Under the pieces are notes generated by a model. The model ran no database searches. It had not been told where the DNA came from and worked only from the letters and a program-made list of their open reading frames with translations. A DNA stretch of 64,000 bases from contig NZ_VCDI01000007.1 of the NCBI RefSeq assembly GCF_005844085.1, positions 62,001 to 126,000 of the forward strand, written 5' to 3'. The position numbers and the translations under genes are program-made. The DNA comes from Lichenicoccus roseus (GTDB lineage: Bacteria; Pseudomonadota; Alphaproteobacteria; Acetobacterales; Acetobacteraceae). This document shows positions 1 through 19,991 of this stretch, piece after piece; within the stretch, counting starts at the first letter, position 1; every line of letters begins with the position of its first letter.

Positions 1-2
1 AG

Positions 3-775: not shown

Positions 776-778
776 CCG

Positions 779-1510
779 GTGCCGGCACTTGGCCTGCGCC
801 GCCAGCCGCCTGCGTTGTCGAGTGAGCGGCAGCACCTCGCGGCGTTGATTAGCGAACGCGACGACGCGGTGCGGCGGGCGCAGGCGCTAGAGGCGGCGGC
901 CGAGGCGGCCGACCGTGCGGTGTGGCAGGCGGATGCAGACTGCGAGGCGGCCGGGCGTGCGCTGCAGGAGGCGCGCGACGGCCTTGCCGACCGGGCACTG
1001 GCGATAGCGGCTGGCGAGGTGCTGGACGGTCCCGGGCCGGTGCAGGCGGCGCGGGAGCGCCTCGCGGCGGCCGAGGCGGCGCTGGTGGATGCGCGGCTGT
1101 CGCGCGATGCCTTGCGGGCGCGGTTGCAGCAGCCGGGGCATGGCCACACCGGACTGATCGACATGCGCGTGCATGAGGCGGCGGTGGCGGTGCTGGCCGC
1201 CGAGGTGCGGCCCCATGCGGCGCGAGTGCTGGCCCAGGTGGAGGCGGCGGAACGCGACGTGATCCGGCTGGGCCGCGAGCTCGTGTGGCTGGCGCGGCAT
1301 GGCGGCTTCGAGACGTCAGGGGAGCCAGGCGGGGCGTATGGCTATCCCGCAGACGACCAGACGCGCGCGGTGGTGCGGCGGTGCGAGCCGGGGCACCGGG
1401 GCCGGGACGATCTGCAGAACTGGCCCGTGCTGCGCGGCGAGGCGGCGTGGGAGCAGGCCTTGCAGGCGTTGAAGCATGACGCGACAGCGTTGCTTCCGGT
1501 GACCGCATGA
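779..1510 (+). CDS. Hypothetical coiled-coil protein, 243 aa, phage region
   Basis: A GTG start lies 3 nt after the previous stop, so it belongs to the same transcription unit. Residues from about 15 to 170 are almost entirely Ala/Glu/Arg/Leu-rich heptad-like helix, predicting a long coiled coil. The last 60 residues are less regular and Gly/Trp-containing. Long coiled coils next to packaging genes can be scaffolding, tail-length or structural proteins, but nothing specific shows which. Frames on the other strand across this stretch are compositional shadows. Confidence 0.5.
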   Translation: MPALGLRRQPPALSSERQHLAALISERDDAVRRAQALEAAAEAADRAVWQADADCEAAGRALQEARDGLADRALAIAAGEVLDGPGPVQAARERLAAAEAALVDARLSRDALRARLQQPGHGHTGLIDMRVHEAAVAVLAAEVRPHAARVLAQVEAAERDVIRLGRELVWLARHGGFETSGEPGGAYGYPADDQTRAVVRRCEPGHRGRDDLQNWPVLRGEAAWEQALQALKHDATALLPVTA

Positions 1511-1523
1511 GCGGCACCGGAAG

Positions 1524-1540
1524 AACTCTCGATCAGAGTT
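1524..1540. terminator. Small hairpin between convergent genes
   Basis: Perfect 6-bp arms AACTCT and AGAGTT with a 5-nt loop, sitting between the ends of the 779-1510 gene (plus) and the 1546-1995 gene (minus). It is short and lacks a strong T-run, so it is at best a weak bidirectional terminator. Confidence 0.35.
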
Positions 1541-1545
1541 AAGTT

Positions 1546-1995
1546 TCAGCGGAGTGCGATGCTGCTGATGCCGTGGCGTCGCAGGATAGCCAGAGCATAC
1601 TCGAGGCTGGAGTCCTGTATCTCTGCCTCAGCCGCCACTTCGTCGCGTTGAGGTGGAGTCGCTATGCCAGGGGCCGCCTCTGCTTTGGCATTTGGGTGAA
1701 GGACCTCGCGCACCTCATCGTCACTGTTGGCCTGCTCAAGCGCTTCCACCACGGCAGCCAACCGGTTGGCGAAAGCAGTCGAGACGTTGATTTTGTCGCC
1801 TGGGTTGTCACCCGGGTAACGGGTCGCGTTGCCGAGATATGTTGCCGCCCATTTCGCGGCCTCCGCGATCTGCCAGACGGCGAGCTTATGTTTTGCTCTT
1901 ACGGCATTGAAGCGACCAACCAATGCATCGGTCAGCATTCCGTTCAGGCTGACCTGATTAGCCGGGTTCCAGGCAAGGGATAGAGTCTGAGACAT
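1546..1995 (-). CDS. Hypothetical protein, 149 aa, divergent from the terminase
   Basis: ATG start at 1995. It is less GC-rich than the flanking genes and is preceded by an AT-rich intergenic stretch. The first 75 residues look like one folded domain (LAWNPANQVSLNG, then a helix with AEAAKWAATYLGNATRYPG). The middle is a helix (LAAVVEALEQANSDDEVREVL), followed by a Pro/Ala linker and a C-terminal helix EYALAILRRHGI. No family is recognised. Its position, opposite to and divergent from the terminase, is where phages often place regulatory or accessory genes. Function unknown. Confidence 0.55.
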   Translation of the reverse strand: MSQTLSLAWNPANQVSLNGMLTDALVGRFNAVRAKHKLAVWQIAEAAKWAATYLGNATRYPGDNPGDKINVSTAFANRLAAVVEALEQANSDDEVREVLHPNAKAEAAPGIATPPQRDEVAAEAEIQDSSLEYALAILRRHGISSIALR

Positions 1996-2033
1996 TTGCT
2001 TTTTCCATGTTCAGAGCCAAAAGCAGCTCTTAA

Positions 2034-2047
2034 ATGCTAAAAAGCAT
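2034..2047. promoter_or_regulatory. Small inverted repeat in the AT-rich divergent promoter region
   Basis: ATGCT-AAAA-AGCAT, a perfect 5-bp inverted repeat about 40 bp upstream of the minus-strand gene starting at 1995 and 90 bp upstream of the terminase. The surrounding 1996-2134 stretch is clearly AT-rich for this genome and probably carries both promoters. An operator role is only an inference. Confidence 0.3.
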
Positions 2048-2134
2048 ATCTTTTTGCTTCTGTAAAGCCAGAAGGGGCGAAACAGAGGTTTTCAACATTT
2101 TAAGGTTCTTAAAGTAGGTGGAAGATACCCTTCG

Positions 2135-3589
2135 GTGACGTTTTCGATCCTCGACGCACTGGACAGCCCTGCCGTGTTCGCCCCGCACTTCCGGGGCGGC
2201 CCGGCCTCCTGGCACGCGTGGCGGGCGTTCCTGGCGGCGCTGTTCGCCCTTCCGATGACCGATGACGACCTAGGGCTCTATCGGACGCATACAGGCCGCA
2301 GCGAGGCCCCTGCCGCCCCGTTCCGCGAGGCGGCGCTGATCTGCGGACGCCGCGCTGGCAAGAGCCGCATCCTGGCGTTGCTCGCGGTCTATCTTGCGGC
2401 GTTCCGGGACTACGGGCCGCACCTGGCATCGGGCGAGGTGGCGACCATCGCGGTGATTGCCGCCGACCGCCGGCAGGCGCGGCACATCATGCGCTACGTG
2501 CTGGGCCTGATCGACGGGGTGCCCGCCCTGGCCGCGCTAAAGAGCGACGAGACCGGTGAGTCGGTGGCGCTTGGCCCGCACTGCCTCATCGAGATCCACA
2601 CAGCCAGCTTCCGGGCTGTGCGCGGCTACACCTTGGCCGCCGTCTTGATCGACGAGGTGGCGTTTCTGAAAACGGATGAGCTGTCCGCCAATCCGGATCA
2701 GGAGATCCTGACGGCGGTGCGGCCGGGCCTGAGCAGCATCCCGGGCAGCCTGTTGATGATTGCGAGCTCGCCCTACGCGAAGCGCGGGGCGCTCTATCAG
2801 GCTTACCGGCAGCACTGGGGCAAGGACGACGCCCGCGTGCTGGTGTGGCAGGGCCCGACGTTGGCCATGAATCCTACGCTCGACCGTGCGCTGGTGGCGC
2901 AGGCCTACGAGGACGATGCGGCCAGAGCGGCGGCCGAGTTTGGCGCAATGTTCAGGGACGACATCGCGGCCTTTGTCTCTCGCGAGGTCATCGACGCCTG
3001 CACCGTGCCCGGCCGGTTCGAGCTGCCATTCATCACCGGCAACACCTACCACGGCTTCGTCGATCCGAGCGGCGGCAGCTCGGACAGCATGACGCTCGCG
3101 GTCGCCCATCTGGAGCGCGATGGGCTGGTGCAACTGGACGCGGTGCGTGAGGTGCGGCCGCCGTTCTCGCCGGAGGGGGTGGTGGCGGACTTCGTGGCGC
3201 TGCTCAAGTCCTACGGCATCCGGCGGGTGCGCGGCGATCGCTATGCGGGCGAGTGGGCACGCGAGCCGTTCCGCAAGCTGGGTGTCGAGTATCAGGTGTG
3301 CGAGCAGCCGCGCTCGGACCTCTATCGGGACCTGTTGCCGAGGCTGAACAGCCGCCAGGTGGAACTGCTCGACCTGCCCCGGCTCTCAAAGCAGTTGTGC
3401 GATCTGGAACGGCGCACGGCGCGCGGCGGCCGGGACAGCATCGACCATGCCCCCGGAGCGCACGATGACATCGCCAACGCAGTGGCCGGAGCGTTACTAA
3501 TGCCGCTAGGGGCTGCGCCGCCCATGCAGATCACGCAGGCGGCGCTGGAGTGGGCGCGGGCCCGGCCTGTGCGGGCAGTGCGGTGGTAG
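2135..3589 (+). CDS. Phage terminase large subunit (ATPase-nuclease)
   Basis: The motor and nuclease that packages phage DNA into proheads. The GTG start at 2135 follows a GGTGGAAG ribosome binding site. The P-loop GRRAGKS is at residues 71-77 and the Walker B AAVLIDEVAF has its Asp-Glu pair at 173-174, giving the ATPase half. An SSP motif (residues 211-213) fits the coupling motif. The RNase H-like nuclease half shows GFVDPSGG (Asp310), GDRYAGEW (Asp368) and AHDDIANAV (Asp444/445), a complete acidic triad. The 484-residue length is normal. Oddly, no small terminase subunit, portal or capsid gene lies next to it. The protein looks intact, so it may serve an element whose other genes lie to the left of the window, or it may be a relic. 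Confidence 0.88.
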   Translation: MTFSILDALDSPAVFAPHFRGGPASWHAWRAFLAALFALPMTDDDLGLYRTHTGRSEAPAAPFREAALICGRRAGKSRILALLAVYLAAFRDYGPHLASGEVATIAVIAADRRQARHIMRYVLGLIDGVPALAALKSDETGESVALGPHCLIEIHTASFRAVRGYTLAAVLIDEVAFLKTDELSANPDQEILTAVRPGLSSIPGSLLMIASSPYAKRGALYQAYRQHWGKDDARVLVWQGPTLAMNPTLDRALVAQAYEDDAARAAAEFGAMFRDDIAAFVSREVIDACTVPGRFELPFITGNTYHGFVDPSGGSSDSMTLAVAHLERDGLVQLDAVREVRPPFSPEGVVADFVALLKSYGIRRVRGDRYAGEWAREPFRKLGVEYQVCEQPRSDLYRDLLPRLNSRQVELLDLPRLSKQLCDLERRTARGGRDSIDHAPGAHDDIANAVAGALLMPLGAAPPMQITQAALEWARARPVRAVRW

Positions 3590-3696
3590 TGCAGCCGGTG
3601 AGGCCACGTCCGATCAGTGCTGCTCAGAAGCGGACATTATAAAGTAGAGTCTGCTGACAGCCAGCACGCCCATCTATAACGTGGAAGAAAGTTAAA

Positions 3697-3837
3697 ATGG
3701 CCCCTAAAGCTGCCATTAACATAGTTGAGGAGAAGTCGCTAGTTCGAGTTCAGCCATTTCACCGGGTAATTTCACCTTTTTTAAAAGAACTTAGCCGTTG
3801 CCAGTGGCAGCGCTGCCAGGTCATGCGCGAGTTATAA
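3697..3837 (+). CDS. Short hypothetical ORF, 46 aa, at the start of the low-GC patch
   Basis: ATG at 3697 is preceded by GGAAGAAAG at good spacing. The peptide starts MAPKAAINIVEEKSLVRVQP and has ordinary composition. It ends before the ATG at 3912 of the larger downstream gene. It could be a leader or small partner of that gene, or a decayed fragment. The stretch 3590-3911 otherwise holds only AT-rich intergenic sequence. Confidence 0.35.
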   Translation: MAPKAAINIVEEKSLVRVQPFHRVISPFLKELSRCQWQRCQVMREL

Positions 3838-3911
3838 GGCAGTTCTACCAGCTACGGCGTCTTATCAACTTTACTATTCGCCTTGGCCTACGATGGTGGC
3901 AGGATAGGCCA

Positions 3912-5144
3912 ATGCATTTGTTATCTTCTAATAATCGTTCCGAGTTCTTGGCGTGTCCGCAGCTAGTCCGCTTCGACTACGTCAGGGGCAGCGATGGGTT
4001 TGAACCCACCCTACTGATCAAAGGCAGCACGCTTCTTCTGAAATATGTGGTGCTGGGTGTGCCGACTCAACTTGCCTTTGCAGTCTGCAATGGTCGCTTA
4101 TTGTGTGCGTTACAAATACACGATGATGGCGACGACGGTGGCATCCTTTGGTCTATTGTAGAACGTGAAGAAGAACTGAATGGGATTCGTGGATTGGCAC
4201 GCGGTGAGCCGCTGGTAGTGTTTTTGTTCAACGAACTTGCCGTTAACATCGCTTGGAACGACTTTACGACGCTAGGCATATTGGATCGCCTGTCCGAGTG
4301 GGCTGCATGCGCAACGTTCGGGCAAGTCGACCACTCGACAATGATGGCGACGACAAGCCCGCTACTCGACCGCCTTCATCGTCGTGTCGAAGATGACGAC
4401 GTCTGGCTGGTGCTGGAAATTGGCGGCAGGTCCGACTGGAGACCCGTCCGCAATCACTTCATCACGGCGGGGGCTTCCTCTACTCTGATTGACATCTTTG
4501 ACGGCAATGAAGGTAATCAGCAGGAGCAGTTAGCCGTTTGGCTTACCGATAATCTTCTGCCAACAGGTGTGCATTACAGCCCACAGATTCCGAAGGGCGC
4601 TGGAACGCGAGAGTTGACGGATCTACTGCTAAGCTACGAATTCGGTGCGGTGCTGATCGAATCCAAGGCGCTGTCGATATTGACGCGTGAGCGGCTGCCC
4701 GACCGTGCAAAGTTAAAGCGCAAGATTTCTTCAGATATTAAGAAAGCCTTTGCGCAACTGCGCGGTGCCATAAGGGCGCTGCGGTCTGGTATTTTGGTGA
4801 CGGGTTTGAAGGGAGACACGCTATTAGTCGAACGCGAAAGTCCTGCTCATGTGATCGTTCTCGTTCCCGACTTAGAACTGGTTGAGGACCGTGCCGCCTA
4901 CGGTATCGAGTTCATACGCGAATTCACCCGCGCGTCCGGCGGCTTTCCTCATTTGCTTGACATTTCGGAATTGCTTCGTGTTGTGCAGGCCGCCGAAATG
5001 ATTGCTGCACGAGGTAAGACGACCACGCCAATGATGGCGTTCGACTACTACCTTACGCAACGGCTCGAACAAGCGGTTGATGCCGGCACACTATGCATTG
5101 AAGTGCTGTTGCAGTTCACTGAAGCCGAAACGGAGACAAACTAA
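3912..5144 (+). CDS. Unknown 410-aa protein with a PD-(D/E)xK-nuclease-like core
   Basis: I chose the ATG at 3912, which has AGGATAGG just upstream. The same frame is open to a TTG at 3798 with no ribosome binding site. The protein is soluble, with no signal peptide. The segment TRELTDLLLSYEFGAVLIES followed by KA resembles the Asp...Glu-x-Lys strand-turn of PD-(D/E)xK nucleases, with Glu about 250 and Lys about 252. A basic helix after it (KLKRKISSDIKKAFAQLRG) fits the usual follow-on helix. The N-terminal 200 residues match nothing I know. The region uses many AT-rich codons (TTA, ATA, TAT), unlike the neighbouring housekeeping genes, suggesting recent transfer. It could be a defence or mobile-element nuclease. 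The fold call is inference. Confidence 0.6.
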   Translation: MHLLSSNNRSEFLACPQLVRFDYVRGSDGFEPTLLIKGSTLLLKYVVLGVPTQLAFAVCNGRLLCALQIHDDGDDGGILWSIVEREEELNGIRGLARGEPLVVFLFNELAVNIAWNDFTTLGILDRLSEWAACATFGQVDHSTMMATTSPLLDRLHRRVEDDDVWLVLEIGGRSDWRPVRNHFITAGASSTLIDIFDGNEGNQQEQLAVWLTDNLLPTGVHYSPQIPKGAGTRELTDLLLSYEFGAVLIESKALSILTRERLPDRAKLKRKISSDIKKAFAQLRGAIRALRSGILVTGLKGDTLLVERESPAHVIVLVPDLELVEDRAAYGIEFIREFTRASGGFPHLLDISELLRVVQAAEMIAARGKTTTPMMAFDYYLTQRLEQAVDAGTLCIEVLLQFTEAETETN

Positions 5145-5528
5145 AGATACGCAGACTACTCAGAAGAAATCAACGACGACAGGTCATCGCATTTCCGATC
5201 TGGAGGTAATAGACCGAGTTCAGTCTTCACTTGTCATCACTCGAAAGCGTCCCTTTTACTCCCGGCGAGTTCACGCCAAGGTGGGCATGTCGGCAATTCG
5301 AATTCCACCCGAGAGAAGACAGGCGGCTAACCAGCTTCATTGAGGTGAAACCTCAGCGGCACGTCAGAATGGGACACTCTTCCCGTGTCGTTAGGGTTGT
5401 CCTGGATCTTTCGGAGCGCAGCGACCTCGAAACTTAAACTTTTATGGAGTAAGCCGGTCCGAAACACTTTCGCTTCCGTTGCTAGCGGACCCCCGTGCTC
5501 TAGACTGACATTAGTTAGAGGACTGGGC
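5145..5528. other. Intergenic stretch without a convincing gene
   Basis: 384 bases between the 410-aa gene and the 169-aa nuclease-like gene. Frames of about 67 residues exist on both strands (minus 5327-5530, plus 5231-5437), but neither has a recognisable family or a ribosome binding site. TTGCTA and TAGACT spaced 16 nt near 5490-5515 could be the promoter for the downstream gene. Base composition matches the low-GC patch. Confidence 0.4.
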
Positions 5529-6038
5529 ATGGCGAGAACCGGATCGATAAATACAGCGATGCTTGGAGCCGCCGGGGAGCATTACGTGATGTGCCAGCTT
5601 CTTCGGCGCGGTATGATCGCAGCGATTGCTCCAGCTGGAGCGCCGGATGTCGATATCATCGTCTCTGACAGAGAGGGACACTCACTGGCTGCCGTTCAGG
5701 TGAAGGCCCGACAGAACACGAACGGCAAGAGTGGATGGCCACTCAACCGAAAGCACGAAGGGATCATACGCTCCTCGCTATTCTATGCCTTCGTAGATTT
5801 TGGAAAAACACTGACTGACCCGCCTCGGTGCTGGATCGTGCCGAGCAGTGTCGTAGCCGAGGCAATCACCGACAGTCATAAGTCCTGGCTAAGCATGCCT
5901 GGTCACAGTGGTCGGGTTCATCAGGATAACGACATGCGATCGTTCCTGCATGACTATAGCCACCAAGGCCTCGATCGTCCCGCAGGATGGCTCAGCCAAT
6001 TTCTTGAACGGTGGGACACTATCCTTGCTGGCGCCTAG
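5529..6038 (+). CDS. Small PD-(D/E)xK nuclease-like (Holliday-resolvase-like) protein, 169 aa
   Basis: The frame is open further upstream, but the ATG at 5529 follows an AGAGGA ribosome binding site and removes a non-protein-like extension. The N-terminus has GAAGEHYVMCQLLRRG (Glu17), then APDVDIIVSDREG (Asp40/Asp42), then LAAVQVKARQ (Gln57-x-Lys59). This Glu...Asp...Q/E-x-K order is the signature of PD-(D/E)xK endonucleases such as archaeal-type resolvases and intron- or element-encoded nucleases. The C-terminal part (RCWIVPSSVVAEAI and later) looks like the shared trailing domain of such proteins. It overlaps nothing and lies 23 nt before the ParB-like gene. The biological role is not determined. 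Confidence 0.6.
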   Translation: MARTGSINTAMLGAAGEHYVMCQLLRRGMIAAIAPAGAPDVDIIVSDREGHSLAAVQVKARQNTNGKSGWPLNRKHEGIIRSSLFYAFVDFGKTLTDPPRCWIVPSSVVAEAITDSHKSWLSMPGHSGRVHQDNDMRSFLHDYSHQGLDRPAGWLSQFLERWDTILAGA

Positions 6039-6061
6039 CTGGAAACCAGGGAGTATCGACT

Positions 6062-6847
6062 ATGCTGCCACCTGAGCTCGCGATGCGAGCCTTCCACCCC
6101 ATCGCCGACCTATTTCCCCTCATAACCGGCCCGGACTTCGAAGCACTGGTCGCGGACGTCCAGGCGCATGGCCTGCGCGAGGCCATCGTGTTGCATGCCG
6201 ACGGCCGGGTGCTCGATGGCCGCAACCGGCTGCGGGCCTGCATAGCGGCGGGTGTCGAGCCGGTGTTTGCCACCTACGAAAGGTCCGACCCGCTGGCCTA
6301 CGTGGTGTCGTTGAACCTGCGCAGGCGGCACCTCGACGAGACCCAGCGGGCGCTGGTGGCGGCCCGGATCGCCACCCTTGGGGTCGGTCGGCCGTCAACT
6401 AACCCCGCAAACCTGCCGGGTATCGGGCAGGCCGAGGCCGCGGAACTGCTCAATGTGTCGGAGCGGAGCGTGCGATCAGCAGTCACGGTGCGCGACCATG
6501 CGATCCCTGCACTGGCCGGGCATGTGGAGCGCGGCGAGGTGTCGGTGTCGGCCGCCTCGGCCGTGGCCCGCCTTCCTGAGGATGAGCAGGAAGTGATCGT
6601 GGCGCGCGGCGAGCGCGAGATCCTGGCTGCCGCCAAGCGCATCCGCGACGCACGGGCTGCCGAACGCGAGGCCGTGGCGCTTGGCTTGCTGGGCGAGCGT
6701 TTCGGCGTCGCGCCGTTCACGGTGCTGAACGCGCGGGAAGGCTGGTGGCAGGAGCGCAAGCGCGGGTGGTTGGCACTTGGCATCCAGAGCGAGTTGGGGC
6801 GCGGGGACCAATGTCACCGCGCGCCCGACAGTTCTAGCTTTGGTTGA
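6062..6847 (+). CDS. ParB-like nuclease-domain protein, probably missing its native C-terminus
   Basis: ATG at 6062 follows AGGGAG. Residues 8 to 100 form a ParB N-terminal/sulfiredoxin-type domain with the signature GRVLDGRNRLRA near residues 48-58. An HTH follows (GQAEAAELLNVSERSVRSAV, about 120-140), then a long helix. The sequence FTVLNAREGWWQERKRGW near residue 220 is characteristic of phage ParB-like proteins found with methyltransferases. I would expect the chain to continue past it, but this one leaves the family-like sequence around residue 248 and ends in QCHRAPDSSSFG. Those last codons run into the convergent gene 6834-7388, which suggests the 3' end was replaced by recombination. 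Partition-type function is not implied. Confidence 0.7.
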   Translation: MLPPELAMRAFHPIADLFPLITGPDFEALVADVQAHGLREAIVLHADGRVLDGRNRLRACIAAGVEPVFATYERSDPLAYVVSLNLRRRHLDETQRALVAARIATLGVGRPSTNPANLPGIGQAEAAELLNVSERSVRSAVTVRDHAIPALAGHVERGEVSVSAASAVARLPEDEQEVIVARGEREILAAAKRIRDARAAEREAVALGLLGERFGVAPFTVLNAREGWWQERKRGWLALGIQSELGRGDQCHRAPDSSSFG

Positions 6848-7388
6848 ACACCGTGGCATTTGCCACTCGGCGTGCCAACTCGACCCTGAAATTCTCGAGC
6901 TGGACACTCTGTGTAGCGCACACCCTGTTCACGTGATTCGAGTGTTTTTCGACCTCAGCCATCTTGGTCGTCACTTCGTCGATCTGCCCCGATAGCGTCC
7001 CGACCTGCTTTCGTAGCTCTCCAATCTGCTTGTGTTGCTCCAGGATCTTATTGTCCTGCGCCTGCTCCTTCTCGTGGTCTTTCTTGAACTGGAGGGCAAG
7101 CTTGAGCAGGCCCTCCTGCTGAGGCACCGTGAGACGCTTTACGTCTTCCTTCAGACCTGCCAGCAGCTGCTCCTTACGCGGCATCGCCTCAACCTTCGCA
7201 AAGAGCGACTTGATGTTCCGCGGAAGGGCGCGCTCGCCCAGCGCCCAGGACTGCACTGTTCGGAGCGGCGTTCCCGTAAGGGCTGCAAAGGCGGATTGCC
7301 CTATTTCAAGGCGTTTGAGTTCTGCTCGGAATACCTCCCGGCCCATCTTTGATTTCACGGAGACGACGTTGCTTGACCGCGTTGTCAT
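6834..7388 (-). CDS. HTH (Cro/CI-like) regulator with a C-terminal coiled coil
   Basis: I chose the ATG at 7388 because GGGAGG sits just upstream. A longer frame begins at 7442, inside the operator. Residues about 15 to 60 (REVFRAELKRLEIGQSAFAA...RTVQSWALGERALP) form a helix-turn-helix of the XRE/plant-type HTH class. Residues 75 to 170 are Lys/Glu/Gln-rich heptads, a long coiled coil likely used for oligomerisation. The last 15 bases overlap the convergent ParB-like gene. A perfect 12-bp inverted repeat lies 18-46 bp upstream of the start, so autoregulation is very plausible. It may be the repressor controlling this element. Confidence 0.72.
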   Translation of the reverse strand: MTTRSSNVVSVKSKMGREVFRAELKRLEIGQSAFAALTGTPLRTVQSWALGERALPRNIKSLFAKVEAMPRKEQLLAGLKEDVKRLTVPQQEGLLKLALQFKKDHEKEQAQDNKILEQHKQIGELRKQVGTLSGQIDEVTTKMAEVEKHSNHVNRVCATQSVQLENFRVELARRVANATVFNQS

Positions 7389-7405
7389 GATGCCCTCCCG
7401 GCGCT

Positions 7406-7443
7406 CTATGTGCGTATCTAGTATACGCACATAGTTACGCACA
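7406..7443. promoter_or_regulatory. Operator: perfect 12-bp inverted repeat plus a third half-site
   Basis: CTATGTGCGTAT (7406-7417), a 5-nt spacer, then ATACGCACATAG (7423-7434), an exact inverted repeat. TACGCACA recurs at 7437-7444, overlapping the end as an extra half-site. It lies immediately upstream of the HTH gene whose start is at 7388. This is what a dimeric repressor binding its own promoter would need. Confidence 0.6.
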
Positions 7444-7593
7444 GTTCAAGGTGGTGTAGAGGCAGATGAGCAATGGGGTAGTTGCATCTCCCACGTAGGG
7501 ATGAGGGGCCTCTACCGCCCTGCCTGCCATGACGGTGATGCCGCGCTCGCGGCGGCCGTAGGCGCAGCGCAGCGGCAGGTGGATCAATGCCAC
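7435..7593 (-). CDS. Possible short ORF, 52 aa, upstream of the HTH regulator
   Basis: The frame begins at GTG 7593 (or the TTG two codons on, which has AAGG at better spacing) and ends at TAA inside the operator region. The peptide (ALIHLPLRCAYGRRERGITV...) is protein-like but unrecognised. It would lie upstream of, and in the same direction as, the HTH gene. Small element-encoded protein or chance frame; low certainty. Confidence 0.3.
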   Translation of the reverse strand: MALIHLPLRCAYGRRERGITVMAGRAVEAPHPYVGDATTPLLICLYTTLNCA

Positions 7594-7760
7594 CTTCCCT
7601 CACCCGGATGCGATCACGCCCCGTAGATCGAGCGACACCGCCCGCTGCGCCCTGCATCGCCTATTCCGTTCCGGCACACCACCGCCCGAAAGCGGATCAC
7701 CAGACGGCCTTGCGTCGATAGAACAACTATATAAACGTTTCGTAAACGCTACGGAATGTG

Positions 7761-7766
7761 TATGAT
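7761..7766 (+). promoter_or_regulatory. Possible -10 element TATGAT before the first GC hairpin
   Basis: TATGAT lies 24 nt before the hairpin at 7790, so initiation near 7773 would give a roughly 50-nt RNA ending in the terminator. The -35 (TTTCGT at 7738-7743, 17-nt spacing) is poor. The AAACGTTTCGTAAACG sequence around the -35 contains a repeated TAAACG that could be a binding site. Confidence 0.25.
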
Positions 7767-7789
7767 CCTGGGGCAGACATCATGACTTG

Positions 7790-7823
7790 GCCCCGCTGCC
7801 GTCACAGGCGGCGGGGCTTTTTT
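7790..7823 (+). terminator. GC hairpin with T-run, first copy
   Basis: GCCCCGCTGCC, loop GTCACA, GGCGGCGGGGC, then six Ts. This is a strong intrinsic terminator shape on the plus strand with no obvious protein gene upstream on that strand. It could end a short non-coding RNA. Confidence 0.55.
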
Positions 7824-7919
7824 GCTCGGCATCGAGATTGGCTGACATAGCTATCAGCACAAACCAGGCCGGATAAGGCACGGCGCTTGCAAGGTGCCGA
7901 ACGTTTCCTCAAGCAACTT

Positions 7920-7952
7920 GCCCCGCTGCCCTAATTGGCGGCGGGGCCTTTT
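7920..7952 (+). terminator. GC hairpin with T-run, second copy exactly 130 bp after the first
   Basis: Arms are identical to the copy at 7790 (GCCCCGCTGCC / GGCGGCGGGGC) but the loop is CTAATT, followed by CCTTTT. Identical stems with unrelated loops suggest a maintained structure. The 7594-7959 stretch contains these two hairpins and no convincing protein gene. Confidence 0.5.
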
Positions 7953-7959
7953 GCTGATG

Positions 7960-8301
7960 TCACTGGACGGTATGCCCGGCTGCACTACCTGCCAGGTGCT
8001 GCAAAACCGCATTGGCCCGGACCAGGCGCTCACGGAGCCATTTCAAATCAGCATCTGCTGCCGGTGGCGTCAGCAGCTTGGCGGCCGCTATGGCGGCCTG
8101 CCAGTAGCGGACGGCGGGCACCATGTCCCCGTTTGCCTCGCTTTTGAACGCTAACTCCCGCCAGAGGGCTACGTCACCCGCCGGCCCCTGAGGCCGCTTG
8201 TTCGGCTCCACCGTGCCGCCGTTCTTCGGGTGGGTGTCGCCGCTTGGTATGCTGCATGCCTTGCGGGCCTTGCGGGCGATAAGGCGTCGGCGGACTAGCA
8301 T
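7960..8301 (-). CDS. Hypothetical protein, 113 aa
   Basis: ATG at 8301 with AAGGG eight bases upstream. The N-terminal 40 residues are basic and probably disordered (RRRLIARKARKAC...). From residue 45 there is a compact helical repeat (DVALWRELAFKSEANGDMVP, AVRYWQAAIAAAKLL, LKWLRERLVRANAVLQHL) resembling a pair of TPR-like helical hairpins. It may bind a partner protein or nucleic acid. No family is recognised. A small palindrome CTCGA-GCAT-TCGAG lies about 25 bp upstream. Confidence 0.5.
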   Translation of the reverse strand: MLVRRRLIARKARKACSIPSGDTHPKNGGTVEPNKRPQGPAGDVALWRELAFKSEANGDMVPAVRYWQAAIAAAKLLTPPAADADLKWLRERLVRANAVLQHLAGSAAGHTVQ

Positions 8302-8380
8302 AGCAGGCCCTTAACGATTGTTTACCTCTCGAGCATTCGAGCTGTGGAACTTGGTAGATGCACTACGTTCCGCGTCCGTT

Positions 8381-8608
8381 ATGTCATTTGTGCCGCCGCC
8401 GCCGCTACCGTCCCTGGCCCCCACCAACCTGCAGGGCTAGACATCGGCTGTCCCACCGCCCGCTCCAGGACGGGCCGCCTCACCATCGCGACCCGGCTCG
8501 AGCGCACCGATAAGTCCAGCGGCGGCAAGTGGGGCCAACCACAAGCACATCATGGGCGAGATACACAGCCTGCTGACCCGGCTGGTGGAGCACTGGGCGC
8601 TGGGCTGA
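8381..8608 (+). pseudogene. Short ORF interrupted by an in-frame TAG
   Basis: One frame starts ATG at 8381 (MSFVPPPPLPSLAPTNLQG), meets TAG at 8438-8440, then continues 55 codons as a Pro/Ala/Ser-rich linker followed by a helix (HKHIMGEIHSLLTRLVEH) and a TGA at 8606-8608. Proline-rich composition on both sides of the stop and a good helix at the end suggest one gene broken by an amber codon. The rest of the 8302-8760 interval shows nothing else. Confidence 0.35.
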
Positions 8609-8760
8609 GGAGCGGGCACCTTAGCAAGTAGATTGCTTGTGCTTCTACGCTCGGTTTATTCATATCGTAGCCGCAACGTCGAGGGAGGCCAGCTTCGCTG
8701 AACCGCTCGACCCCGTTCTGTCCCACTTCCCACGACAGGGCGGCCTGAGAGGAAGAACGC

Positions 8761-9186
8761 ATGGCCGAAATACCTGAACCTATTTTTGCGCCAGACGGAG
8801 ATGACGTTCTGGAGTTAATCACTGCCATGCAGACGGTCATGCGGGAGATGGAGGAAGGCAACATACAGGCTAGCGTTGCTCACCGTGCCCTGTGCCGAAA
8901 GGCCTACGAGCCCTTTCGCGCGCTCCTGGACGATGACGGCATGGACTACATGTCGTTCGGCGACGCGCTGCATATCCGCCGGGAGGCGGATATGCAGATT
9001 ATAATGGAGGAACGCTGGCAGTGGCACCTCGCAGGAAATTCGCTTGGCTACAAGAGCAGCGCTAGGACCCTAGAAGACGGCACTGCCGAGATCTGCATGG
9101 GGGATTTCAGGTATCAGAAGGCGCCTGACAGCTTCGTCTGGGCTGCTGTGCTGCCGCAGCGGAAAGCAACAGGAGACGGCCTATAA
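8761..9186 (+). CDS. Hypothetical protein, 141 aa
   Basis: ATG at 8761 with a strong GAGAGGAAG ribosome binding site. It is acidic and soluble, with helices at residues 15-35 (LELITAMQTVMREMEEG) and 40-60, then an RREADMQIIMEERWQWHLA segment and a beta-rich C-terminus (TAEICMGDFRYQKAPDSFVW). No motif is recognised. A possible promoter lies around 8630-8665. It is convergent with the cluster of very short minus-strand genes that follows. Confidence 0.55.
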   Translation: MAEIPEPIFAPDGDDVLELITAMQTVMREMEEGNIQASVAHRALCRKAYEPFRALLDDDGMDYMSFGDALHIRREADMQIIMEERWQWHLAGNSLGYKSSARTLEDGTAEICMGDFRYQKAPDSFVWAAVLPQRKATGDGL

Positions 9187-9201
9187 GTCTGCGGTTCTCT
9201 G

Positions 9202-9393
9202 TCACCGCACCACTCCACCCTGGACACAGCAGGCGCGGCAGGCCGGTTTCACCGGCGCCGAGGTTCGGTAATACCCTCCCCTACGGCTGGCCACGTCATG
9301 GCAGATGTTCCACTTCCCGCTCCAGCACACGTCGCTTGACTTCTGTCTGGAGCCCCTAGGCCTGCCGGCGAAGCGCGCGCACCTGGCTTCCAA
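9202..9393 (-). CDS. Possible Cys-rich small protein, up to 63 aa
   Basis: ATG at 9393 overlaps the upstream 54-aa gene by 38 bases. An internal GTG (at the residue before CWSGKWNIC) is an alternative start. The core has CWSGKWNIC and later KPACRACC, giving spaced cysteines that could bind zinc. It is the last of several tightly packed short minus-strand frames. Confidence 0.35.
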   Translation of the reverse strand: MEARCARFAGRPRGSRQKSSDVCWSGKWNICHDVASRRGGYYRTSAPVKPACRACCVQGGVVR

Positions 9394-9520
9394 CTGGCCG
9401 CCCGTATGCGGCCTGGAGCAGCTGCTCAGCCACCGCCAGCTCGCTATCCGCCGCCAGCAGGGCGTCGAGCACGATGCGATCCTGCCCCGGCAGCAAGCCG
9501 ACCCTCCGCGGGTTCACCAT
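9356..9520 (-). CDS. Short helical protein, 54 aa
   Basis: ATG at 9520, 4 bases after the previous short frame. The sequence begins MVNPRRVGLLPGQDRIVLDA and continues as amphipathic helices (LAADSELAVAEQLLQAAYG), ending in a basic tail. It is plausible as a real gene because of its composition and tight packing. Function unknown. Confidence 0.4.
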   Translation of the reverse strand: MVNPRRVGLLPGQDRIVLDALLAADSELAVAEQLLQAAYGRPVGSQVRALRRQA

Positions 9521-9524
9521 CGGT

Positions 9525-9617
9525 TCAGGAGTGCAGCTTCTCGGTCGCTGACCTGACGCAGCCCGGACAGCACATGAGCGCGCCGTCCAGGCTCAGCGTG
9601 TCGCTATGGCGCTTCAT
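9525..9617 (-). CDS. Very short ORF, 30 aa, with a CCPGC motif
   Basis: ATG at 9617, 14 bases after the stop of the ribbon-helix-helix-like gene. It encodes MKRHSDTLSLDGALMCCPGC and ten more residues. The clustered cysteines hint at metal binding, but the size makes the call weak. Confidence 0.3.
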   Translation of the reverse strand: MKRHSDTLSLDGALMCCPGCVRSATEKLHS

Positions 9618-9631
9618 GCGCGCGCTACCGC

Positions 9632-9796
9632 CTACAGGCCAGCTTCGATGAGCCGGCGAGCCGCCTCTGCTTGCGGTGGAAGGTCGGGCTGGTCCCCCCG
9701 CCACGCGTCGATCTGGTCGGGCAGGGTGGGCGGGAGCCGCAGCTCGAATCGGGTTGGCCTGCGTTCTTCTTGCAAGGCAGCGATTTTACGACCCAC
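9632..9796 (-). CDS. Ribbon-helix-helix-like small protein, 54 aa
   Basis: GTG at 9796 with a weak GTAGG upstream. The sequence RRPTRFELRLPPTLPDQIDA is the typical ribbon-helix-helix start: a strand with alternating Thr/Phe/Leu/Leu, then a helix. It is followed by DLPPQAEAARRLIEAGL, the second helix seen in Arc/CopG-like DNA-binding proteins. Such proteins act as dimers and often are antitoxins or element regulators. No toxin gene is adjacent. It is first in a row of four very short minus-strand frames, which suggests one transcript. Confidence 0.6.
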   Translation of the reverse strand: MGRKIAALQEERRPTRFELRLPPTLPDQIDAWRGDQPDLPPQAEAARRLIEAGL

Positions 9797-9905
9797 TACG
9801 TAGCCTACGCAATCCGTTTGACCGGCGGGGCCCTTATACGGAGGTTAAGTATATTCAACGGGCGCAGATCTCCTGCAGCCCTGGCGGTGGCGCAGAGGGA
9901 CGACA

Positions 9906-10127
9906 GTGATTGACCGGGGGAAGGCGGCGGTGATGCGGCAGGTAATTAGCGACATGAGGCGGATCATCGCTTAAAATCTGGCCTCCGTTGCGAGGCTGCG
10001 CCACGAGATTGAGGAAGCGGACGAGCCCGATGAACGGCAGCTCGGGATCTTGGTTCGAGTGCTGCAGCATTATGCCGCCATCGGACTGAAGTTGCAGCAC
10101 ACGGGGCCGCGGTCATCGCTATCCTGA
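9906..10127 (+). pseudogene. Short helical ORF interrupted by an in-frame TAA
   Basis: GTG at 9906 with GAGGG seven bases upstream starts MIDRGKAAVMRQVISDMRRI, then TAA at 9972-9974. The same frame continues 50 codons with coherent helical sequence (VARLRHEIEEADEPDERQLG, then LVRVLQHYAAIGLKL) to TGA at 10125. The good start site and the protein-like sequence after the stop argue for a recently broken small gene. Confidence 0.45.
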
Positions 10128-10181
10128 GGCCGGCCTGAAGCCCGATCCAGCTGTGAGCCGCGCCGCGCACATAGAAAAGCT

Positions 10182-11201
10182 TTACAGGCATAAGGGATCG
10201 GGAACCGCTCCTACCGTTTGGCTTTCGCCCTTCTTCCTTACCACTCGCATAACCTCATCCAGAAATGGAGAAGACAGCATCTTCCGAGTGGAGGCATCGA
10301 TTGTCAGGAAGCGCAGCACATCTCGACCGTCGGTGCCATTCAGGTATCGATTTGCGTCCGCTGTTATCCAAGCCGTTGCCGCAAAGATGTCAAATATGCG
10401 AAGGCAAATCGCAATTCTTTCGTTGATGACAGTGGCGAAAGCGAGATGATGAGCACGATGCGGTAGCCAGAGAGGGAACAGATCGGAAGAACCGGCATCC
10501 CCGCAGTAACCCATCAATGTTTGGGCGATCGCAGGATCCGCCGATGTCACGGCGCTTCGAAGCTCCGAAGCTCTCGGATCATCAAGATAAGTCTCACCGA
10601 GCCACAGAAACGCAAGTTCATATATGATCTTGAGCAATGAATGCTCAAGGTATTTAAATTTGACTGTCAGATTGAACAGGACATTTGGGTTTTGCCGCAC
10701 GGTGACGGTCCGCGACGCTCGATCGAGGATCTCAGACATTTCCTGCTCAGTTGCAGGAGGAAGCCTACGGCGTTTGCGCTCTCTTTGAATGATCAGCGGA
10801 AGAGTGTGTAGTTCTGTCTCATCCACAAGAACTTGGAACGATACTTCTCCTTTCTCGTTTTCAATCACGGGAGACTTATGCTGGATCAGCCTGATATCCA
10901 TCTTCTGAGTGCGCGGGTTGAACTTCGTTCTGACGCGTAGCTCAGGGTCATCCACGAGCGTCGCAACGCCCTCCATTATCTCGTATTCCGAAGGAACGTG
11001 AGAACTATTTCCAGCAAGATGTAGCTCAGCTCGGCGCATACGTATCAGGAAGTGGTCGACAAGTGCTGCATCCACTCTACTGCCAAGCTGCGAATTGCAG
11101 GGCTCGCAGACGCGATCAGTGGTCAGGGGCCCCCCGATAGCGAGCGGAAAAACGTGTTCCTCGGAGCCGTCTCGCTCAAGCTGGCAGAATATACATCGCA
11201 T
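10182..11201 (-). CDS. HNH endonuclease-like protein (HNH_5 type), 339 aa
   Basis: I chose the ATG at 11201, which follows GAGGTAGGAACC. The frame is open 29 codons further. The N-terminus carries CIFCQLERDGSEEHVFP and then VCEPCNSQLGS: two CxxC zinc pairs (Cys3/6, Cys32/35) enclosing a Glu-His (Glu15, His16) and ending CN...LG. This is the layout of HNH-family nucleases with a zinc knuckle. The remaining 290 residues, including FNLTVKFKYLEHSLLKIIYE and a hydrophobic region near 270, belong to no domain I know. It is the last gene of the island before the tRNA-Glu. It is lower in GC than the chromosome and may be a defence or selfish nuclease. Confidence 0.68.
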   Translation of the reverse strand: MRCIFCQLERDGSEEHVFPLAIGGPLTTDRVCEPCNSQLGSRVDAALVDHFLIRMRRAELHLAGNSSHVPSEYEIMEGVATLVDDPELRVRTKFNPRTQKMDIRLIQHKSPVIENEKGEVSFQVLVDETELHTLPLIIQRERKRRRLPPATEQEMSEILDRASRTVTVRQNPNVLFNLTVKFKYLEHSLLKIIYELAFLWLGETYLDDPRASELRSAVTSADPAIAQTLMGYCGDAGSSDLFPLWLPHRAHHLAFATVINERIAICLRIFDIFAATAWITADANRYLNGTDGRDVLRFLTIDASTRKMLSSPFLDEVMRVVRKKGESQTVGAVPDPLCL

Positions 11202-11324
11202 GGTTCCTACCTCAGGCCGCTTCGTGTCCTGGTCCCTTGCGGCTCGGACTGACTGTCCAAGGCTGTATATCGGCCAGATCTTGGACAACTGCGCCGGCAG
11301 AAGCAGCTACATCGTTGCAAAGAT

Positions 11325-11400
11325 TGGCGTCCCGTAGGGGATTCGAACCCCTGTTACCGCCGTGAGAGGGCGGTGTCCTAGGCCTCTAGACGAACAGGAC
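11325..11400 (-). tRNA. tRNA-Glu (anticodon CTC)
   Basis: Cloverleaf on the minus strand: acceptor GTCCTGT pairs with ACGGGAC, the anticodon loop CTCTCAC gives CTC, the T-arm GTTCGAATC is present, and CCA is encoded at 11327-11325. The 3' end points at the accessory region, so this gene is the probable attachment site of the element to its left. Confidence 0.95.
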
Positions 11401-13067: not shown

Positions 13068-13970
13068 GTGGCCTCTGCCGTCCTAAACCTGGGTCCCGAG
13101 GGAAATCTCTCTCGGTACCTCCAGGACATCCGCAAGTTTCCGATGCTCGCTCCCGAGGAGGAACTTGCTCTTTCCAAGCGTTGGCGTGACCACGAGGACA
13201 CCGCCGCCGCGCACAAGCTGGTGACTTCCCATTTGCGTCTCGTTGCCAAGATTGCAATGGGCTACCGCGGCTATGGCCTGCCGATCAGCGAGCTGATCAG
13301 CGAAGGCAACGTCGGCATGATGCAGGCGGTGAAGCGGTTCGACCCGGAGCGTGGCTTCCGTCTTGCGACCTACGCGATGTGGTGGATCCGCGCCGCCATT
13401 CAGGAATACATCCTGCACAGCTGGTCGCTCGTGAAGATGGGCACCACTGCCGCCCAGAAGAAGCTGTTCTTCAACCTGCGGCGCCTCAAGGGGCAGATGC
13501 AGGCGATCGAGGATGGCGATCTCCATCCCGAGCAGGTCGGCGTTATCGCGCGCTCGCTCTCCGTGTCCGAGCAGGATGTGGTGAACATGAACCGGCGCCT
13601 CGCTGCGCCGGATCACAGCCTGAACGCCCCGGTACGCGCGGACAGCGAGGGCGAGTGGCAGGATTGGCTCGTCGACGAGGGTGACAGCCAGGAGCAGGTC
13701 CTCGCCGAAAGCGAGGAGTTCTCCGGCCGCAAGGCGCTGCTCGGGGAGGCCCTGCGCACCCTGAACGAGCGTGAGCGTCATATCCTGATCGAGCGGCGCC
13801 TCAAAGAGGAGCCGGCCACCCTCGAGGATCTCTCCCAAGTGTACAGCATCTCGCGCGAGCGGGTGCGGCAGATCGAGGTAAGGGCGTTCGAGAAGCTCCA
13901 GAAGGCGATGCGGACCCAGGTGACGACGAGGCGACAGTCCGATCATGGCCAGGGCGAGAAGGCCGCCTGA
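13068..13970 (+). CDS. rpoH: RNA polymerase heat-shock sigma factor RpoH (sigma-32)
   Basis: Directs RNA polymerase to heat-shock promoters. GTG start after AAGGAG. Region 2 is present (LVTSHLRLVAKIAMGYRGYG, then GLMQAVKRFDPERGFRLATY-like sequence, with WWIRAAIQEYIL). The RpoH box QKKLFFNLRRLKGQ is near residue 130 and is diagnostic of sigma-32 rather than sigma-70. The region 4 helix-turn-helix is VYSISRERVRQIEVRA near residue 260. The 300-residue length is normal. It is monocistronic, with its own promoter candidate upstream and a hairpin terminator downstream. Confidence 0.95.
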   Translation: MASAVLNLGPEGNLSRYLQDIRKFPMLAPEEELALSKRWRDHEDTAAAHKLVTSHLRLVAKIAMGYRGYGLPISELISEGNVGMMQAVKRFDPERGFRLATYAMWWIRAAIQEYILHSWSLVKMGTTAAQKKLFFNLRRLKGQMQAIEDGDLHPEQVGVIARSLSVSEQDVVNMNRRLAAPDHSLNAPVRADSEGEWQDWLVDEGDSQEQVLAESEEFSGRKALLGEALRTLNERERHILIERRLKEEPATLEDLSQVYSISRERVRQIEVRAFEKLQKAMRTQVTTRRQSDHGQGEKAA

Positions 13971-14048: not shown

Positions 14049-14510
14049 TCAGGGATCGGTTGCCGGCAGGCTCCACTCGGTTCTCAATGCCGCCAGGCGC
14101 GCCTCTATCTCACGTCGGCGGCCCGCCAGACGCAGATCCGTCATCCATACGGCAGCCACGCACGACGTCTCGTTGACCAGCCAGCCGGCTGCAGCACCGG
14201 TCCAGGTCAGCGGCAGGCTGCCGATGCGGGCCAGCACATCGACGCTGTCGGCCAGCGTATGACTGCTGAACAGGAACGACCGCACCGGCTCGATCGCGCC
14301 GGCAAGGGTGAAGATCGTCACCGTCCGGGTCAGGGGACGGCCCGGTGCGGTCTCGCATACCAGACACAACAACACCGGAGCGCCCAGCGCCATCAGCAGG
14401 AGCATGCCGCCCGGCGACACCATCAGCAGGATGCCGAACAGCATTCCCTGCCACCATCGCCAACCGGCCGCCTTCGCGGCCTGCTTGTCCGGCAACGGCT
14501 TTCGCTTCAT
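14049..14510 (-). CDS. Membrane protein of unknown function, 153 aa, partner of the pseudokinase
   Basis: ATG at 14510. Hydrophobic spans are at about residues 20-48 (MLFGILLMVSPGGMLLLMAL and on, likely two helices), 65-80 and 100-122 (LTWTGAAAGWLVNETSCVAA), with a basic C-terminal tail (RLAGRRREIEARLAALR). It lies 49 bp downstream of the pseudokinase gene in the same direction, so the two are probably co-transcribed. No family is recognised. It could anchor or regulate the kinase-like protein at the inner membrane. Confidence 0.6.
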   Translation of the reverse strand: MKRKPLPDKQAAKAAGWRWWQGMLFGILLMVSPGGMLLLMALGAPVLLCLVCETAPGRPLTRTVTIFTLAGAIEPVRSFLFSSHTLADSVDVLARIGSLPLTWTGAAAGWLVNETSCVAAVWMTDLRLAGRRREIEARLAALRTEWSLPATDP

Positions 14511-14559
14511 GAGGCGACCGGTCGTAGCCAGGCGGTGCCCAGGGCGCCGGGGCGGACCA

Positions 14560-16533
14560 TCAGGCCAGCATCTCCAGCAGCAGGACGCCCATCAGGCATA
14601 CCAGCCCGGCACCCGCCGCGGTGTCCTGCGCCGCCTTTCGCGCGACCGCCTGCCGCTCCGGCAGCGCCACGGTTTCATCGTTCAGCGTCTGGCTCAGCCG
14701 GATCACCAGCTCGATAGCCTCCTCGCGCTCCGCTGCGTCCTGTGTCCGCTGTGGCTGATCGGTCAGCAGGCCGAGCATGGCAGCGAGATCGCCGCCGTCT
14801 GCCGCCGCCCTCACCTGCGCCTCCCGGGCGGTCCGGCGGCTGGCGCCTGGCCAGTCCTGAAGCATCGGCAGGACGGACTGCAACAGGGCCGCCGCGAGCC
14901 TGGGCGCGGGGCCGCAGCCACTCTGCTTCTGACACCGGGCCAATGCCATCAGCCCCCGCAGCGACGGGTCGAACGGCTCGTCCTTCTCCGGCACCGGTTG
15001 GCCGCCATCCTCGGCCCGTGCCGACAGGAAGGCCATGATGTCGGCATCCAGCGTCAGGCCCGGCGCGCCCGGCAAGGCCTGCCCCCGCTCGAGGGACAGG
15101 ATCAGGTCGCCCTGCGTCCCGGCCGGAACGGCGGCGAACACCGGCGATGCACAGGCCAGGAAAGGATTGAGCACGTAGAGGGCCAGCAGGAACATCGCAT
15201 CGGCCTCGAGCCCGGCCGCATCGCGCGCAAGCCGGGCCGGGATCGCGATGGCGAGATGATGCGAACGGCTGTCCTGCAGGTTCAGCCAGCGCGTTATCGT
15301 CTCCCGGCCGATCAGGGCCTCGACCAGTGAGGCTGCGGTGCGACGATCGGTTGCGGGCTTCGCGGCAAGCTGCGCGGCCAGCAGGCTGCCCAGCCCGTCC
15401 GGCCAGAGCCAGCCACGCCAGAACAACGGTGCGTCGGGATCGAGTGCCGCAACCAGGCGCATCAGCATGGCGTCGTCCACGCCCGGGCTGCGCCTCTCGA
15501 ACTTCGCATCCAGGCTGCGCAATTCAGCGATGCGGCTGGCAAGCGCGGCATCCTCGGCATAGCGCCGGATCCACTGCTCGATGGTGCCCTGCCTGAGCAG
15601 CTCGAGTCCGGCTGCCGGCTGGTCCGCGCACGCCAGCGCCAGGCTGCGGCAGTTCCAGACCGGCCGCTCCCCGACCGCGATCGGCCGGCCGCTGCGCAGC
15701 ATGGTGCGCCGGATGACGCGGCGCTCGTGGATCCCGTCGAGACTGGTCAGCGAGCTTGCGGTCGGACGCGCCGCCGGCTGTTCGGCCAGCATCGCGCGCA
15801 GGATCTCCTGCACGCCTTGCGGCAGCCTCTCGTTCTCGGTGAGAGCCGCGTGGCTTCCGAGCTCGAGCTTGCTCCGCAGCACGTCCTGGGTCGACAACCC
15901 CTCCATCGGCAGCCGGCGCCGCCACAGCGCGAGCAGCAGCACGCCGAGCGCATACACGTCATCGGCGGCGGTCCCCTGGCCGCGCGCATTCGGCGCGCAG
16001 ACCAGGCTCTCGGGGGGCTCGAAGGCCGGTGGCTGGTGCATCGCCGCCGGTGCTGCCCAGCACGGCCCGAGCACGACACCACCGCCCGCCGACAGGAAGA
16101 CGTTGTCCGGCCTGATCGCGCGGTGCGTCAGGCCGACGCCGTGCAACCGCTCGAGTGCGGCCGCCGCCGGACGCAGGAAATGTGTCAGCAGGGCATTGCC
16201 GATCCAGGGTGTGACCAGCGAGGTCATCGGCCGCCCGCCCGGTGCCGGTGCGATGATCCAGTAGTCGTTGCCAATGAAGCCGCTCGCCAGTGGTGCCAGC
16301 AGGCCCTCGTGACGCAGGTCGATGTAGACCGGCAGCCGCGGACGGCACGGCGCATCCCGCATCACCTTCAGCGCCAGCAGCTCACCCGACAGCCCCCGCC
16401 TGTCTTCTGCCTTGCAGGCGCTGACGCCGCCGATCTCGCCTCGCGGCGCCGACGCCAGGACCAAGTAGCGGTCGGCGATAATCGGCACCGGACCGGCCGA
16501 TGGCTGCGGCGGCCTGGCAGATTGTCCGCTCAC
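14560..16533 (-). CDS. Membrane-anchored protein-kinase-like protein lacking catalytic residues (pseudokinase)
   Basis: Residues 20-270 follow a Ser/Thr kinase fold. There is ALKVM with the ATP-binding Lys (about 56), a helical linker, then [18 protein letters not shown] (about 135-150) at the catalytic loop and [20 protein letters not shown] at the APE/F-helix region. The catalytic loop reads HRAIRPDN, with Ala replacing the proton-acceptor Asp of HRDxKxxN, and the DFG site reads LGP. Phosphotransfer is therefore unlikely. Residues 280-630 are helical and unassigned, and the last 20 residues ([16 protein letters not shown]) form a C-terminal transmembrane anchor. The likely role is a scaffold or ATP/lipid sensor. 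It is followed by a small membrane protein. Confidence 0.75.
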
Positions 16534-16692: not shown

Positions 16693-17385
16693 ATGTCCGA
16701 ACCGGATCAGGATGCGTCGGCACTCGCCCGGCTGATCGACCATACCATCCTTAAGTTGGATGCGACCGCGGAGCAGGTCCTCGCCTGCTGCGATGAGGCA
16801 ACGCTGCACGGGTTCCGGTCGGTCTGCATCAATCCGGTCCGGGTGAAGCTGGTGGCGGCAGGCCTTGCCGGCAGCGACGTCCGCACATGCTCGGTGATCG
16901 GCTTTCCGCTCGGCGCCGCCACCAGCCGCATCAAGGCGGCGGAGGCGGCACAGGCGGTGGCGGATGGCGCCGACGAGATCGACATGGTGATCGACATCGG
17001 CGCGCTGAAGGAGGGCCGGCACGATGTGGTCGGCGCCGACATCGCGGCAGTACGGGCGGCCTGCCCGGATGCCATTCTCAAGGTCATCATCGAGACCTGC
17101 CTGATCGATGACGACGAGAAGCGCACGGCCTGCCGGCTCGCGAAACAGTCGGGCGCCGATTTCGTCAAGACCTCGACCGGTTTCTCGTCAAGCGGCGCAA
17201 CCGTCGCCGACGTGGCGCTCATGCGCGCCGCAGTCGGACCCGACGTGGGCGTCAAGGCTTCGGGGGGCGTGCGCACCCTGGACACCGCGCGCGCGATGGT
17301 CGCCGCCGGAGCAATGCGGCTCGGCACCAGCTCGGGCGTCGCCATCGTGAGCCAGGCCGGCGGCATCCCCGCCGGCATCTATTGA
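16693..17385 (+). CDS. deoC: Deoxyribose-phosphate aldolase
   Basis: Cleaves 2-deoxyribose 5-phosphate to glyceraldehyde 3-phosphate and acetaldehyde in deoxynucleoside catabolism. The frame is open far upstream, but the ATG at 16693 follows GGAAGGAG and gives the standard 230 residues. Landmarks are the start [31 protein letters not shown] with the Schiff-base Lys near residue 155, and [14 protein letters not shown] with the second essential Lys. A ribokinase gene begins 22 bp downstream, which fits pentose salvage. Confidence 0.95.
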
Positions 17386-17407
17386 TCACCAGACCGGCAG
17401 GGTCCCC

Positions 17408-18346
17408 ATGAGCAGGCGCATCGGCGTTATCGGCAGCAACATGGTCGACCTGGTGACCTACGTTGATCGCATGCCGGAGGCGGGCGAGACCCTGGCGGCC
17501 CCACGTTTCGCCATGGGTCCCGGCGGCAAGGGCGCCAACCAGGCGGTCGCCGCGGCGAAGCTCGGCAGCGACGTGCTGATGGTGACCTGCGTCGGCGACG
17601 ACCTGTTCGGCCGCAATACGCAGAGCAGCCTTGCGGCTGCAGGCATCGATGCGCGCCACGTTCGCATCGTCCCCGGCCTGTCCAGCGGGGTCGCCCCGAT
17701 CTTCGTGGAGCCGAACGGCGAGAACCGTATCCTGATCGTCAAGGGCGCCAACGATGCGCTGGCGCCGGAGGATGTCGAGAACGCCGCGGATGATCTTCGT
17801 GGCTGCGGGCTGATCCTGCTGCAACTCGAAGTACCGTTGCGAACAGTCTATGCGGCGATCGAATTCGGTCGGGCGAACAAGGTTCCGGTGCTGCTAAACC
17901 CGGCGCCGGCGACGCCCGGGCTTTCGATGGACCGCATCGCGGGTGTCAGTTTCTTCGCCCCGAACCAGACCGAGCTTGCCATCCTGACCGGCCTGCCGAC
18001 GCGTACCGCGGACGAGGCCGGGCAGGCAGCGCGCACGCTGCTCGAGCGGGGCATAGGCGCGGTGATCGTAACGCTCGGCGCCGACGGTGCGTTGCTGGTC
18101 GAACCGGGCGGCATCCATCACATCGCTCCGGTTGCCGTACGGGCGGTCGACACCACCGGCGCCGGCGACGCCTTCATCGGCGCCTTCGCGCATCATTATG
18201 TCGGCGGACATGACAAACTCACGGCCCTGCGCCAGGCAGCGCGCTACGCCGCCGACGCGGTCACCCGGCCGGGGACGCAGAATTCGTTCGCCACCGCCGC
18301 CGAGTTCGCCCTGTTCTGCAACACGCTCGAAGGCGGCCGCAGCTAG
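17408..18346 (+). CDS. rbsK: Ribokinase (PfkB family)
   Basis: Phosphorylates ribose (or a related sugar) with ATP. N-terminal PfkB signature GPGGKGANQAVAAAKLG is near residue 37. The C-terminal signature DTTGAGDAFIGAF near residue 245 holds the catalytic Asp. An Asn-rich substrate pocket (ANDAL, LNPAPA) is present. The 312-residue length is typical. It is coupled with deoC in a two-gene operon for ribose/deoxyribose use; no sugar transporter accompanies it here. Convergent with the next gene, ending 6 bp from it. Confidence 0.9.
   Translation: MSRRIGVIGSNMVDLVTYVDRMPEAGETLAAPRFAMGPGGKGANQAVAAAKLGSDVLMVTCVGDDLFGRNTQSSLAAAGIDARHVRIVPGLSSGVAPIFVEPNGENRILIVKGANDALAPEDVENAADDLRGCGLILLQLEVPLRTVYAAIEFGRANKVPVLLNPAPATPGLSMDRIAGVSFFAPNQTELAILTGLPTRTADEAGQAARTLLERGIGAVIVTLGADGALLVEPGGIHHIAPVAVRAVDTTGAGDAFIGAFAHHYVGGHDKLTALRQAARYAADAVTRPGTQNSFATAAEFALFCNTLEGGRS

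Positions 18347-18701: not shown

Positions 18702-19991
<1,290 letters not shown>

Follow-up and report, generated by a model that had tools for sequence, protein, structure and literature searches.

The locus at positions 14049-16533 of the Lichenicoccus roseus DNA analyzed here (64,000 nucleotides, referred to below as the window) raises the question of what a kinase-like protein with altered catalytic motifs might do at the membrane, and whether the small membrane protein encoded next to it is its dedicated partner. Both ORFs recognized in the preliminary description were found intact on the minus strand, as are all features of the two genes given below. The larger gene (14560..16533, GTG start) encodes 657 aa, and its stop is separated by 49 nt from the start of the smaller one (14049..14510, 153 aa). 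The kinase fold proposed for the larger protein was borne out by a match to Pfam PF00069 above the gathering cut-off (34.0 vs 31.7 bits, E 2.6e-8), as well as by the family profile, which aligned to PDB kinases over both lobes (E 6e-14) and placed the domain at residues about 20-265 (15739..16476). In a Pfam scan of 47 relatives, 40 matched PF00069 at E 0.01 or better. The AlphaFold model of the 657-aa protein (2 sequences) had a mean pLDDT of 38 and was set aside from the fold search. The gene is present as a single copy in the 4.79 Mb source genome, and one related protein came from an Acetobacteraceae assembly. Whole-genome searches yielded further relatives, about 46 of them in a set of 100 relatives and about 130 in a set of 387 class genomes, so that the family is found in roughly one third of the sampled alphaproteobacterial genomes, and 148 distinct full-length members made up the alignment set.

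Closer inspection of the catalytic motifs revealed that none of the 148 members combines the VAIK lysine, HRD aspartate and DFG aspartate of an active Ser/Thr kinase, or even carries two or more of these three residues, and no close active relatives with intact HRD and DFG motifs were encountered. The change from HRD to HRA (residues 137-139, 16117..16125) had been read correctly; the aspartate replaced by Ala139 is present in only two members and missing in 146, while the first-position histidine is retained in 134/148 and the motif varies among HRA, HRG and HGA. K56 (16366..16368) does occupy the beta3 (VAIK) position, with the canonical K-to-HRD distance of 94 (family median). The lysine is nearly private to the window protein, which shares it with one other member, and is absent from the remaining 146; its supposed conservation is thus no family feature. 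The site is mostly hydrophobic (V, I, L or A in 126/148), and no other conserved lysine occurs in residues 20-130. As for DFG, its loss stood up, while the assigned register did not: LGP covers residues 155-157, and the DFG site is P157-C158-W159 (16057..16065), a shift of two. Across the family this position is occupied by E (59 members), D (46), P (19) or C (11), with P or C in 25 of the 31 members from the GTDB family of the window and an acidic residue in 103 of the 117 from elsewhere. The catalytic residues have thus been lost across the whole family, and the loss has gone further in the lineage of the window. A single decayed copy was thereby ruled out. Judged by its sequences, the family qualifies as one of pseudokinases, with a kinase fold and catalytic residues lost across homologues.

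Structural residues of the C-lobe are highly conserved in the same alignment. The helix F aspartate (Asp192) is present in 146/148 members, Arg256 in 147/148, the APE-type Glu172 in 138/148 and the catalytic-loop Asn144 in 142/148. Glu172 follows the DFG position at a distance of 15 residues in all but two of the 148 members, and Asp192 follows Glu172 at a distance of exactly 20 in every one of them. The corresponding distance from DFG to the APE glutamate is 24 in PKA. As far as the alignment can tell, the activation segment is short and of fixed length, and the fold is under constraint.

A pseudokinase of this kind could still have another enzymatic activity, such as the AMPylation or glutamylation performed by SelO and SidJ, exerted on or together with the membrane partner. 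Like the present family, SelO and SidJ have a kinase fold without the HRD aspartate, and a review (PMC12599244) presents them as examples of such changes yielding new chemistry; the conserved Asn144 and the acidic residue retained at the DFG position in 105/148 members would fit this explanation. According to the same review, SelO and SidJ retain the ATP-site lysine (PMC12599244), which is replaced in the present family in all but two members. The absence of this lysine makes alternative chemistry less likely, the GTDB family of the window has lost the acidic residue as well, and the SelO Pfam profile matched none of the 47 members scanned. Altogether we consider this explanation quite unlikely.

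Between the kinase domain and the C terminus lies a helical domain of about 350 residues (275-630, 14644..15711) with near-invariant Y453, C461, S463, D496 and D599, for which a Pfam search returned no match. When this domain alone was used as the query against 397 genomes of the phylum, 19 matches were obtained, all within the same class, and among the members found it was never fused to a catalytically intact kinase domain. Matches to PDB entries were confined to designed armadillo repeats and were taken as composition-driven. The proposed C-terminal membrane helix (residues about 637-656, 14566..14625) was confirmed by hydropathy, which detected a hydrophobic helix in 144/148 members, followed by 0-11 residues. 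Because almost no tail follows the helix, the pseudokinase looks tail-anchored; the sequence suggests this form of attachment, and the orientation in the membrane is a prediction.

The 153-aa product of the downstream gene is hydrophobic, in agreement with the earlier reading of a co-directional multi-span neighbor, and is predicted to contain three to four membrane segments in a low-confidence model (mean pLDDT 56, unused). Neither Pfam nor NCBIfam contained a match to it, no consistent Pfam match emerged from 34 aligned relatives, and conservation is highest at P45 and W146. With a profile built for this protein, a homologue was detected directly downstream of 144 of the 148 pseudokinases (two of the matches being weak, E about 4e-5), mostly at a gap of 50 nt or less and with many of the genes overlapping. 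The profiles for the two proteins matched the same 130 of the 387 class genomes (130/130), and no genome contained the partner only. Three matches were limited to the pseudokinase profile; two of these are borderline kinases (E about 1e-11), and the third is a weak match in an assembly of 770 contigs. Linkage of the pair, which the preliminary description had left to be checked, is thus conserved. The Fisher p for co-occurrence (5e-101) ignores shared descent and should not be read literally. Two other observations carry more weight than this p value: in two genomes (G254 and G325) the gene with the strong partner match lies apart from the pseudokinase gene and both are nevertheless retained, and tandem pseudokinase duplicates each have their own partner.

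Exceptions were observed on both sides of the pair. A few second pseudokinase paralogues have no partner, and one genus has additional partner copies that lack a pseudokinase; both observations were counted against a module. Two genomes (G073 and G194) contain one pseudokinase and four partner copies each, three of them extra copies located away from the pseudokinase. Around one such extra copy in G073 (L079, 1875-2480) no family-like pseudokinase gene was present in the fetched flanks. The same genome encodes a separate 289-aa kinase-domain protein (L078, 1569-2435) with a weak match to the family profile and no partner nearby, which is probably an ordinary kinase. With purA and rpoH controlled for, the partial distance correlation between the two proteins of the pair was 0.53, no clearer than the 0.49 obtained for purA and rpoH themselves, and any coevolution of the pair beyond shared descent did not stand out in this comparison.

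The gene order most often observed around the pair is hisZ-purA-pseudokinase-partner, convergent with rpoH-rluD, with purA directly upstream in 91/143 members and rpoH downstream in 72/143. Azospirillum thermophilum exhibits this purA/rpoH arrangement, with the pair annotated as 'serine/threonine protein kinase' and 'hypothetical protein'. In the window, the convergent neighbor is an rpoH-type sigma factor gene (13068..13970, plus strand; annotated rpoH in Azospirillum), and purA (18702..19991, minus strand) is separated from the pair by deoC and a ribokinase-like gene (16693-18346), unlike in most relatives. Neither promoter-like nor terminator-like sites were found around the pair. Proximity to purA would suit a nucleotide or ligand sensor in which the degenerate pocket relays the level of a small molecule, perhaps purine-linked, to the partner. 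At many loci the pair is kept in the absence of purA, in the window two genes lie between purA and the pair, the purA/rpoH synteny may be mere ancestral gene order, and the ATP-site lysine has been lost across the family; a sensor of this kind therefore appears unlikely. At relocated loci away from purA and rpoH, only the pseudokinase and its partner stay together, and no third constant neighbor beyond the purA/rpoH order appeared when neighbors were clustered in two sets of 20-26 loci.

Elsewhere in the window, positions 1-11400 represent a probable prophage or mobile-island remnant beside a tRNA-Glu gene (11325-11400). Encoded there are a terminase large subunit (2135-3589), which matches phrog_2 at E 7.8e-23, and a protein resembling ParB (6011-6847), and at 4-6 kb GC falls to 0.54. 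Adjoining the tRNA gene is a 368-aa ORF (10182-11288, minus strand) with an HNH-like start (CIFC...EEHVFP) and no match in PHROGs or PADLOC.

Membrane-anchored pseudokinases with degraded motifs are also known as hubs of secretion and transfer systems, namely EssB/YukC of type VIIb secretion and TraF of pIP501, as described in two articles (PMC12599244, PMC13037476). The pair could accordingly be imagined as a hub for secretion or envelope assembly that recruits machine parts, since its overall plan resembles that of EssB as outlined in the former of these (PMC12599244): a membrane pseudokinase with a degraded pocket, a short activation segment and a small membrane partner. In EssB/YukC the partner is a different one, and it is in the present family that a long helical domain separates the kinase domain from an anchor at the extreme C terminus, giving a different topology. 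The YukC Pfam profile matched none of 47 members, no secretion or envelope gene recurred beside the pair in the two sets of loci with clustered neighbors, and the family also occurs in 1.4-2 Mb genomes, all of which renders such a hub very unlikely. As an analogy, EssB/YukC and TraF would still be the closest working comparison, even though the pseudokinase does not belong to the YukC family by sequence.

Seven bacterial pseudokinase families with degenerate kinase motifs (ActPs1-3, GLW, CP1, DYD and DLHK) are described in the accessible part of the review (PMC12599244). Several of them have a C-terminal membrane region, DLHK and CP1 are without membrane helices, and GLW is mainly proteobacterial (PMC12599244). 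Going by these descriptions, none of the seven has the motifs of the present family or a partner gene of this type (PMC12599244); in GLW pseudokinases the site occupied here by HRA, HRG or HGA reads GLW. The best named profile matches of the pseudokinase are the defense kinases MkoA, MAD6 and PD-T4-6, which might be taken to indicate an anti-phage defense protein. The matches are weak, cover the generic kinase region only and remain far below cut-off (56 vs 460 bits for MAD6, NCBIfam NF047741), no C-terminal domain is shared, and the locus exhibits conserved housekeeping synteny and no defense island. A function in defense has next to no probability in our estimation.

What the computations show directly is a kinase fold whose catalytic residues are lost family-wide, an activation segment that is short and fixed in length, a hydrophobic helix at the C terminus, and a partner that is linked to the pseudokinase and co-occurs with it. 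The previously suggested role as a signaling scaffold or sensor goes beyond these observations and is an inference. The reading we favor, and hold to be fairly probable, is a dedicated two-protein module of the inner membrane: the pseudokinase, tail-anchored and serving as scaffold or switch, would bind the small partner and perform no canonical phosphotransfer. The kinase-shaped domain and the 350-residue helical domain would both face the cytosol, held by the single C-terminal helix. Presumably lacking canonical phosphotransfer, the pseudokinase would act by binding, its predicted contact in the membrane being the small multi-span partner, and could thereby recruit or regulate a further client, in the manner of a scaffold or conformational switch.

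The wide distribution of the pair suggests a two-protein membrane module of early origin that has so far escaped characterization. No study of this pseudokinase-partner family was found in the literature, and its sequences may already be included, unnamed, in the 42-family classification of bacterial STKs. We propose more tentatively, with slightly less than even confidence, that the pair constitutes an undescribed, ancient and largely vertically inherited alphaproteobacterial module, through which the tail-anchored pseudokinase, together with an obligate small partner, would govern a core process of the membrane or envelope that is retained even in genomes of 1.4-2 Mb. The 'serine/threonine protein kinase' label that databases give to the pseudokinase would mislead work on phosphosignaling. 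Bacterial pseudokinases are numerous, and very few have a known job; the fixed partner, fixed architecture and wide range of this family within one class make its role directly testable.
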